This document shows positions 27,689-28,830 of a DNA stretch of 64,000 nt, piece after piece; positions within the stretch are counted from its first letter, which is position 1; each line of letters opens with the position of its first letter. The stretch is from the NCBI RefSeq assembly GCF_000178155.2, contig NZ_ADKM02000091.1:62001-126000 (forward strand), written 5' to 3'. A program made the position numbers and the translations under genes. The notes beneath the pieces were generated by a model that saw nothing but the letters and a program-made list of their open reading frames with translations, was not told the DNA's origin and searched no databases. The stretch comes from Hominimerdicola alba 8 (GTDB taxonomy: Bacteria > Bacillota > Clostridia > Oscillospirales > Ruminococcaceae).

Positions 27689-27717
27689 TTGACAAACGGA
27701 CGGTTATGGTGTATAAT
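27689..27717 (+). promoter_or_regulatory. Consensus promoter of the tRNA cluster
   Basis: A perfect TTGACA (27689-27694) and TATAAT (27712-27717) with a 17-bp spacer lie 55 bp upstream of the first tRNA. Confidence 0.93.
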
Positions 27718-27772
27718 AGATACTGTTGTGAGGGACGAAACGAAAACGAAACGAACTTCACAAAGTAAATAT

Positions 27773-27845
27773 GGGGGTTTAGCTCAGCTGGGAGAGCATC
27801 TGCCTTACAAGCAGAGGGTCACAGGTTCGAGCCCTGTAGTCCCCA
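27773..27845 (+). tRNA. tRNA-Val(UAC), copy 1
   Basis: Full cloverleaf. The anticodon loop CTTACAA gives TAC, and the T-loop is canonical (TTCGAGC). The acceptor GGGGGTT pairs with AGTCCCC with wobbles. CCA is not encoded. Confidence 0.95.
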
Positions 27846-27893
27846 TCAGTCAGAGAGTGCGCAGAATTTTTCTGCGCACCACTTTTCTGACAC

Positions 27894-27967
27894 GGCCCGG
27901 TAGTTCAGTTGGTTAGAACGCCGCCCTGTCACGGCGGAGGTCGTGAGTTCGAGTCTCATCCGGGTCG
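27894..27967 (+). tRNA. tRNA-Asp(GUC), copy 1
   Basis: Cloverleaf with anticodon loop CTGTCAC (GTC), discriminator G73 and canonical D and T loops. Confidence 0.95.
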
Positions 27968-27976
27968 CTTAAATAT

Positions 27977-28052
27977 GCTTCTGTAGCTCAGTCGGTAGAG
28001 CAGGGGACTGAAAATCCCCGTGTCGGTGGTTCAATTCCACTCGGAAGCACCA
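27977..28052 (+). tRNA. tRNA-Phe(GAA), copy 1
   Basis: Cloverleaf with anticodon loop CTGAAAA (GAA), discriminator A73 and an encoded CCA. Confidence 0.96.
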
Positions 28053-28054
28053 TT

Positions 28055-28127
28055 GCGGATTTAGCTCATCTGGTAGAGCGCCACCTTGCCAAGGTGGAGG
28101 TAGCGAGTTCGAGCCTCGTAATCCGCT
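28055..28127 (+). tRNA. tRNA-Gly(GCC), copy 1
   Basis: Cloverleaf with anticodon loop TTGCCAA (GCC), acceptor GCGGATT / AATCCGC, discriminator T73 and a canonical T-loop. Confidence 0.96.
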
Positions 28128-28130
28128 CTC

Positions 28131-28159
28131 TTTATCCCGATGCAGAGTGTCGGGATAAA
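28131..28159 (+). terminator. Hairpin after first tRNA block
   Basis: TTTATCCCGA pairs perfectly with TCGGGATAAA (10 bp, 9-nt loop). Only a short T-run follows, so it may be a weak terminator or a processing signal before the divergent tRNA. Confidence 0.55.
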
Positions 28160-28168
28160 TTTGATAAT

Positions 28169-28242
28169 GCGGGTTTATTTCAACGCTAGAATACCTTTCT
28201 TCCTGAGAGGAGAAACTTGTTTAACTCAAGTGACCCGCTCCA
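28169..28242 (+). tRNA. Divergent tRNA-Gly(UCC)-like RNA with altered elbow
   Basis: 74 nt including an encoded CCA. Acceptor GCGGGTT / GACCCGC (one wobble), anticodon stem CCTTT / AGAGG with loop CTTCCTG (anticodon TCC), and T-stem ACTTG / CAAGT fully paired. It lines up without gaps to an ordinary bacterial tRNA-Gly(UCC), but the elbow is changed. D-loop G19 is C, T-loop C56 is T and 57 is A (TTTAACT instead of TTCGANT), position 10 does not pair with 25, and base 37 is T. Glycyl identity bases (G1-C72, C2-G71, C35, C36, U73) are kept. This pattern resembles staphylococcal tRNA-Gly species used for wall synthesis rather than translation. A pseudogene is the alternative. Confidence 0.7.
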
Positions 28243-28246
28243 CCGG

Positions 28247-28270
28247 ACGCCGATAGTCATCGGCGTTTTT
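28247..28270 (+). terminator. Terminator after the divergent tRNA-like gene
   Basis: ACGCCGAT pairs with ATCGGCGT around AGTC and is followed by TTTT. Confidence 0.85.
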
Positions 28271-28275
28271 CATAT

Positions 28276-28348
28276 GCGGATTTAGCTCATCCGGTAGAGC
28301 GCCACCTTCCCAAGGTGGATGTGGCGAGTTCGAGTCTCGTAATCCGCT
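28276..28348 (+). tRNA. tRNA-Gly(CCC)
   Basis: Cloverleaf with anticodon loop TTCCCAA (CCC). It has the same acceptor stem as the tRNA-Gly(GCC) copies and discriminator T73. It reads GGG codons. Confidence 0.95.
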
Positions 28349-28431: not shown

Positions 28432-28470
28432 CTTTGGGTCTTTCTTTTGAAAGACTTGAAAATAATATAT

Positions 28471-28543
28471 GGGGGTTTAGCTCAGCTGGGAGAGCATCTG
28501 CCTTACAAGCAGAGGGTCACAGGTTCGAGCCCTGTAGTCCCCA
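28471..28543 (+). tRNA. tRNA-Val(UAC), copy 2
   Basis: Identical to the copy at 27773. It begins the second Val-Asp-Phe-Gly block. Confidence 0.95.
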
Positions 28544-28592
28544 TCAGTCAGAGAGTGCGCAGAGTTTTTTCTGCGCACCACTTTTCTGACAC

Positions 28593-28666
28593 GGCCCGGT
28601 AGTTCAGTTGGTTAGAACGCCGCCCTGTCACGGCGGAGGTCGTGAGTTCGAGTCTCATCCGGGTCG
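28593..28666 (+). tRNA. tRNA-Asp(GUC), copy 2
   Basis: Identical to the copy at 27894. The preceding spacer differs by one extra base and one substitution. Confidence 0.95.
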
Positions 28667-28675
28667 CTTAAATAT

Positions 28676-28751
28676 GCTTCTGTAGCTCAGTCGGTAGAGC
28701 AGGGGACTGAAAATCCCCGTGTCGGTGGTTCAATTCCACTCGGAAGCACCA
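28676..28751 (+). tRNA. tRNA-Phe(GAA), copy 2
   Basis: Identical to the copy at 27977, with encoded CCA. Confidence 0.96.
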
Positions 28752-28753
28752 TT

Positions 28754-28826
28754 GCGGATTTAGCTCATCTGGTAGAGCGCCACCTTGCCAAGGTGGAGGT
28801 AGCGAGTTCGAGCCTCGTAATCCGCT
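28754..28826 (+). tRNA. tRNA-Gly(GCC), copy 3
   Basis: Identical to the copies at 28055 and 28359. Last tRNA before the cluster terminator. Confidence 0.96.
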
Positions 28827-28830
28827 CTAC

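Follow-up and report, generated by a model that had tools for sequence, protein, structure and literature searches.

A tRNA-Gly(UCC)-like gene with an altered elbow, standing in the midst of a tRNA array, raises the question of whether it serves translation, serves some other use of glycine or is a mere relic. Such an element is found in the window, by which we mean the whole 64,000-nucleotide stretch of Hominimerdicola alba 8 DNA that was analysed. A first-pass annotation made from the letters alone had compared it to the staphylococcal glycine tRNAs that act outside translation, and the comparative evidence presented here lends support to that comparison.

Reading the sequence, we found a complete 74-nt tRNA-Gly(UCC)-like gene with an encoded CCA (Table 1). 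The 7-bp acceptor stem, the 5-bp anticodon stem with anticodon TCC and the fully paired 5-bp T stem of the first-pass description were all recovered, as were the T at position 37 and the T loop TTTAACT; the acceptor stem ends in a U7-G66 pair, and the anticodon stem reaches 6 bp when C32-G38 is counted. Omitted from that description is a T10-T25 mismatch in the D stem, seen in the window copy; of the 12 distinct sequences of the element, 10 have it. The fold of the element beats all 200 shuffles (z -2.96). Ordinary annotation can overlook such tRNAs: in the window, the element is absent from the ARAGORN output and unlisted by Rfam at the gathering score, with no Rfam tRNA match for 28120-28290 even at E <= 10, and across the genus ARAGORN is silent at the element in 18 of the 22 loci that carry it.

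Table 1. Features at and around the element, in positions of the window
Feature	Position	Strand	Remark
Sigma-70 promoter ahead of the tRNA array, consensus 12 of 12	27689..27717	+	
tRNA-Gly(GCC), directly upstream of the element	28055..28128	+	ARAGORN
Spacer hairpin, tRNA-Gly(GCC) to element	28133..28157	+	judged by eye
tRNA-Gly(UCC) gene of putative non-proteinogenic type, encoded CCA	28169..28242	+	22/29 genus genomes, covariation
D arm: 3 pairs, T10-T25 mismatch, loop AACGCTA, GC for G18G19	28178..28192	+	
Anticodon loop CTTCCTG: UCC, U37, C32-G38	28199..28205	+	32-38 C-G in 12/12 distinct sequences
T arm ACTTG-TTTAACT-CAAGT: A49-U65, U51-A63, T loop without C56	28215..28231	+	
Terminator-like hairpin and short T run, right after CCA	28246..28267	+	loose script criterion

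Using blastn, we found full relatives of the element in 22 of 29 Ruminococcus genomes, source included, among them all 13 genomes of at least 95% completeness. The seven genomes without a copy are 70-92% complete; the covariance model reached at most 69 bits in them, compared with 88-98 bits for true copies, and the matches inspected there are ordinary tRNAs. The 22 copies, all of which encode CCA, comprise 12 distinct sequences. An identical 74-nt sequence is common to seven genomes with differing flanks, and the element is letter-identical in Ruminococcus albus KH2T6 and AR67. Standard pairs fill 95.1% of the pair cells across the 12 distinct sequences, and 6 pairs show two-sided changes, 4 of which belong to the five T-stem pairs. 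Covariation scored 0.318, compared with 0.141 after shuffling and no more than 0.132 in slid controls. Because the element recurs in 22 of the 29 genomes with covariation above both shuffles and slid controls, we regard this as more than chance. Judged from these alignments, the element is conserved and structure-constrained and is not a decaying copy; neither lost pairing nor lost conservation, named beforehand as signs of a pseudogene, was seen.

The source genome encodes a separate canonical tRNA-Gly(UCC) on another contig (loop CTTCCAA), and the element aligns to it without gaps, as had been claimed. A second ARAGORN tRNA-Gly(UCC), whose body differs (GCCGTATTGGTC...ACGGCT), lies at G000:C35 on the reverse strand of L001 and has the ordinary loop CTTCCAA and an ordinary T loop. 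As a canonical set we used 11 distinct tRNA-Gly genes from Ruminococcus and other genera. The distinct element sequences have C-G at 32-38 and a pyrimidine at 37 in 12 of 12 and A57 for G57 in 11 of 12, whereas none of the 11 canonical genes has any of the three; conversely GG at 18-19 is present in 11/11 canonical genes and in 0/12 element sequences, where GC (2), GT (7) and AC (3) replace it. The canonical genes carry A37, the T loop TTCGA and G51-C63 in 11/11 and G49-U65 in 10/11, and one of them (L086) shares the T10-T25 mismatch. The proposed loss of the G19-C56 elbow contact stood in part: the window copy has C19 and T56 and G19 is lost in 12/12 sequences (G18 alone is kept in 9/12), but C56 is kept by 6 of the 12, and its loss is not general.

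Other positions do not vary at all. The anticodon-loop stretch CTTCC and U33 are invariant, and so are, in 12/12 sequences, G1-C72, C2-G71, U73, C35 and C36, which an excerpt of PMC9976931 gives as glycine identity bases; the earlier statement that the glycyl-tRNA synthetase identity bases are kept is therefore correct for the main ones. We also surveyed base 37 in the 40 distinct ARAGORN anticodon arms around the 51 Rfam tRNA matches of the source genome, and found A in 33, G in 7 and a pyrimidine in none, while 32-38 is C-G in a single arm, that of a tRNA-Ala(GGC), and T-A in 10. As base 37 is always a purine and C32-G38 occurs in 1 of 40 arms, it is the pyrimidine at 37 that is exceptional, not C32-G38 by itself.

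The non-proteinogenic (cell-wall) tRNA-Gly(UCC) isoacceptors of Staphylococcus were reportedly described by Giannouli et al. in 2009. According to excerpts of four papers, the S. aureus isoacceptors are aminoacylated, evade EF-Tu and supply wall synthesis, the set has UU or CU for G18G19 and A-U at 49-65 and 51-63, and staphylococci are the sole example of wall-dedicated tRNAs given in reviews (PMC4052509, PMC8007984, PMC9976931, PMC4810233); G49-U65 and G51-C63 are given as strong EF-Tu pairs in the excerpt of PMC4052509. For comparison we used six distinct tRNA-Gly genes on IMG/VR contigs L246 and L249, which we infer from their matching features to be the wall-type isoacceptors of the reviews. 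Of the 161 phage records that L246 matches, 157 are Staphylococcus; L249 matches one Staphylococcus epidermidis phage (99.9% over 85% of its length) plus 87 records of mixed names. All six genes have C32-G38, a pyrimidine at 37, A57 and A-U at both 49-65 and 51-63, and none has GG at 18-19 (TT in 1, CT in 4, C- in 1). The anticodon loop CTTCCYG is thus found in 12/12 element sequences, 6/6 staphylococcal genes and 0/11 canonical genes, a signature derived here from the recovered staphylococcal genes and not taken from a published criterion. A seventh gene of the class, on contigs L281 and L282, has the same signature plus the T10-T25 mismatch; its host is unsettled (L282 has a single 75-nt match to a Staphylococcus phage, L281 none), and it was left out of the staphylococcal counts.

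The T stem resembles the staphylococcal one less uniformly. The window copy has A-U at 49-65 and U-A at 51-63 where the source canonical tRNA has G-U and G-C; across the 12 element sequences, 49-65 is AU in 3, GU in 4 and GC in 5, and 51-63 is UA in 3, AU in 3, GU in 5 and GC in 1. The weak EF-Tu pairs of the staphylococcal type appear to be reproduced only in part. A FastTree tree of the 74-nt genes, built with a masked anticodon loop to look for a link of descent between the Ruminococcus and staphylococcal genes, favoured neither common origin nor convergence firmly.

Among the genomes of the family and the order that were scanned, we saw no copy of the element outside the genus Ruminococcus. 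The covariance model gave 88-98 bits in the 8 Ruminococcus genomes sampled among 396 family genomes and at most 76 bits elsewhere; 30 loci were kept, 27 of them readable by a simple pattern, and the 19 readable loci from other genera are ordinary tRNA-Gly, in a scan that divergent relatives below ordinary-tRNA scores could escape. The pattern scan of 394 order genomes returned one match, the source genome, and a looser pattern returned two among 398 phylum genomes, the source genome and the genome of L280. An origin from a phage or plasmid was rejected after a distant blastn found no match to the element in the phages or plasmids collections. Across genome_contigs (84,980 species), the pattern matched at 38 loci; the Ruminococcus element accounts for 20, and the 18 others were sorted by eye. 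Five of these others, four in Propionibacteriaceae and L110, have a CTTCCYG loop and a FemAB match in 5/5 (103-123 bits). The remaining 13 comprise two CTTCCYG tRNAs (L113 and L115), five tRNAs that have a CCC anticodon in the loop TTCCCGA, and six chance matches, with a FemAB match in 6/13 (best 68.9 bits). Since that of L113 reaches 34 bits only and L115 has none, a pyrimidine at 37 does not by itself imply Fem, and since three of the four Propionibacteriaceae genes have G18G19 and a normal T loop, the anticodon loop is the sole feature that they share.

Three further loci can be described individually. At L110:6171-6365, two tRNA-Gly(UCC) genes adjoin, one with the canonical loop CTTCCAA and one with CTTCCCG and a broken G18G19, in a genome that has FemAB; the CTTCCCG gene may be a duplicate en route to the same role. 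L280:1501-1577, in the other genome of the phylum, is tRNA-like, with GCGGTCG in the acceptor, CTTCCCG as its anticodon loop, TGCAA as its T loop and an encoded CCA; it has no ARAGORN call, and its fold is not clearly above shuffles (z -1.00). L149:482-555, on a contig of the viral collection, is a tRNA-Gly(UCC) whose anticodon loop reads CTTCCCG and whose variable loop reads AGAT; its D loop is shortened.

A Fem-type transferase, whose presence the first-pass annotation had proposed to check, is found throughout the genus. FemAB matches one gene, as two adjacent pieces, in each of the 29 Ruminococcus genomes, and 3 of 14 control genomes match. The source FemX-like protein (367 aa from the chosen ATG) scores 193.5 bits against PF02388. 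Among solved structures the lipid II:glycine glycyltransferase 6snr ranks first (E 2e-42), followed by Weissella FemX; the protein misses the NCBIfam FemX equivalog cut-off (140.7 versus 500). From 30 genus loci we extracted 28 proteins, L156 and L183 having no separate protein (L183 being, by position, the second piece of the L165 gene). The source protein scores 677-873 bits against these 28, proteins from other genomes reach no more than 372 bits (best 53 of 58), and the equivalent of Lys305 of Weissella FemX is K in 28/28, with a numbering that presumes the chain to start at residue 1. The source genome also encodes a dimeric-type GlyRS. The fem gene and the element lie on different contigs of the source genome, with no physical linkage. 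FemAB is present in 71 of the 155 family genomes sampled outside Ruminococcus while the element tRNA was unseen outside the genus in the family and order samples, indicating that Fem does not require the element tRNA; co-occurrence with Fem, considered as proof of role, is weakened by the same 71 genomes.

The element lies in an array of ARAGORN-called tRNA genes, in the order Val-Asp-Phe-Gly(GCC)-element-Gly(CCC)-Gly(GCC)-Val-Asp-Phe-Gly(GCC); a nearly letter-identical Val-Asp-Phe-Gly cassette flanks the element on both sides (27772-28128 and 28470-28827). In 22/22 loci a tRNA-Gly(GCC)-type gene precedes the element, with a gap of 3-44 nt from its 3' end. The spacer hairpin recurs, by eye, with altered sequence in the loci with long spacers and is missing at spacers of 3-6 nt. 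A hairpin and T run follow the CCA in 21/22 genus loci by a loose script criterion, the remaining locus entering masked bases; a stricter terminator scan of the window did not list the hairpin. Because a terminator-like site (27857-27879) intervenes between the sigma-70 promoter and the element, this promoter is only a candidate for the element. Elsewhere in the window, Rfam places an FMN riboswitch at 1032-1172.

Several explanations compete for these observations. The missing ARAGORN and Rfam calls in the window, together with the T10-T25 mismatch, are what a decaying tRNA pseudogene might show, but the genus-wide conservation, the compensatory changes and the CCA retained in every copy point the other way; with conservation and covariation both contradicting it, we rejected this reading, which we find scarcely credible. 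A specialised translating tRNA-Gly, decoding GGA/GGG conditionally, would account for the invariant UCC anticodon and U33 and for the kept tRNA fold, and C32-G38 does occur in one ordinary tRNA of the source genome. Against such a role stand the pyrimidine at 37, universal in the element and seen in none of the 40 source-genome arms, the G18G19 broken in 12/12 sequences and the existence of a canonical UCC tRNA, and we hold it to be distinctly improbable. Very improbable, in our estimate, is a regulatory RNA, be it a T-box decoy or an uncharged tRNA competing with the canonical tRNA-Gly. The invariance of CTTCC would suit this role, and a staphylococcal glyS T-box reportedly answers to non-proteinogenic tRNA-Gly. 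The T-box decoy raised by the first-pass annotation nevertheless found no glycine T-box to act on in a search of the source genome with RF00230: of its eight matches, six are above the cut-off and none is on the glyS contig (C75), and a glycine specifier was recognised in 0/8, downstream genes and specifiers being judged by eye with a model that could miss a divergent glycine T-box.

The same dedicated Gly-tRNA might instead serve another aminoacyl transfer, such as small-molecule, lipid or peptide tailoring, and not wall branching. An excerpt of PMC12945691 describes FemX-like double-GNAT enzymes of natural-product pathways that likewise use Gly-tRNA. Furthermore, the literature matches listed include no paper on the wall chemistry or the peptidoglycan type of Ruminococcus, so wall glycine in this genus is undocumented here. 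However, the Ruminococcus FemX-like enzyme is one conserved gene in 29/29 genomes whose closest solved relative is a lipid II glycyltransferase, and it looks like core metabolism; we consider this alternative unlikely.

By analogy with the staphylococcal system, we think it probable that the element yields a non-proteinogenic tRNA-Gly dedicated to FemX-like glycyl transfer, and that it is the counterpart of that system across the genus. This reading is favoured because of the conservation and structural constraint of the element, the separate canonical tRNA-Gly(UCC), the staphylococcal signature and the FemX-like gene in every genus genome. The element would probably be transcribed together with the adjacent tRNA genes and processed in the manner of a tRNA. 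Charging with glycine by the dimeric GlyRS is suggested by the acceptor stem of the element and by U73 and C35/C36, among the invariant identity bases. By staphylococcal precedent, the pyrimidine at 37, C32-G38 and the loss of G18G19 would keep the Gly-tRNA from EF-Tu and the ribosome, and A49-U65 and U51-A63 in the T stem of the window copy may add to this avoidance. The charged tRNA could then supply glycine to the single FemX-like transferase of every Ruminococcus genome searched, the acceptor most likely being a peptidoglycan precursor.

No report of such a tRNA-Gly in Ruminococcus appears among the literature matches listed, as excerpted. If the proposed role is true, gut and rumen bacteria would provide a second, genus-wide case besides staphylococci, the division of aminoacyl-tRNA between translation and wall synthesis would become testable by comparison, and an undescribed peptidoglycan or other glycyl modification would be predicted in Ruminococcus. 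The C32-G38/pyrimidine 37 signature also offers a sequence tool to find such tRNAs. More tentatively, and at slightly less than even chances, tRNA-Gly reserved for non-ribosomal glycine transfer may form a class that spans phyla, which would imply an undescribed glycine-modified wall in widespread commensals of gut and rumen. The marks of this class, proposed with the same reserve, would be pyrimidine 37 with C32-G38, a broken G18G19, A57 and a variable loop that starts AG. Staphylococcus and the whole genus Ruminococcus would be its cases, a proposal to which we give just under half our credence, with L110, L111 (Propionibacteriaceae), L280 and L149 as possible further members.

Compared with known systems, the element resembles the Ruminococcus canonical tRNA-Gly(UCC) in its similar acceptor stem, U73, UCC anticodon and gapless alignment, and differs from it where the canonical gene has A37, G18G19, the TTCGA T loop and G51-C63. 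With the wall-type tRNA-Gly(UCC) of Staphylococcus it shares the UCC anticodon, the loop CTTCC[CT]G with C32-G38 and pyrimidine 37, the replacement of GG at 18-19, A57 (in all but one of the 12 sequences), the encoded CCA, the location inside a tRNA array, a variable loop that starts AG (10/12 distinct Ruminococcus sequences, 6/6 staphylococcal genes) and, in the window copy, A49-U65. It differs from the staphylococcal genes in an acceptor stem close to that of the Ruminococcus canonical tRNA-Gly and in a T loop that starts TTT in 6/12 sequences; furthermore, Staphylococcus has several copies where the source genome has one, and the function of the element is proposed by analogy. The partner enzyme, like FemX of Weissella viridescens and S. 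aureus, belongs by sequence to the FemAB family and keeps the Lys305 equivalent. In contrast to staphylococcal FemX, the Ruminococcus protein lacks profile positions about 240-298, a stretch that presumably corresponds to the coiled-coil arm found in the staphylococcal enzymes.
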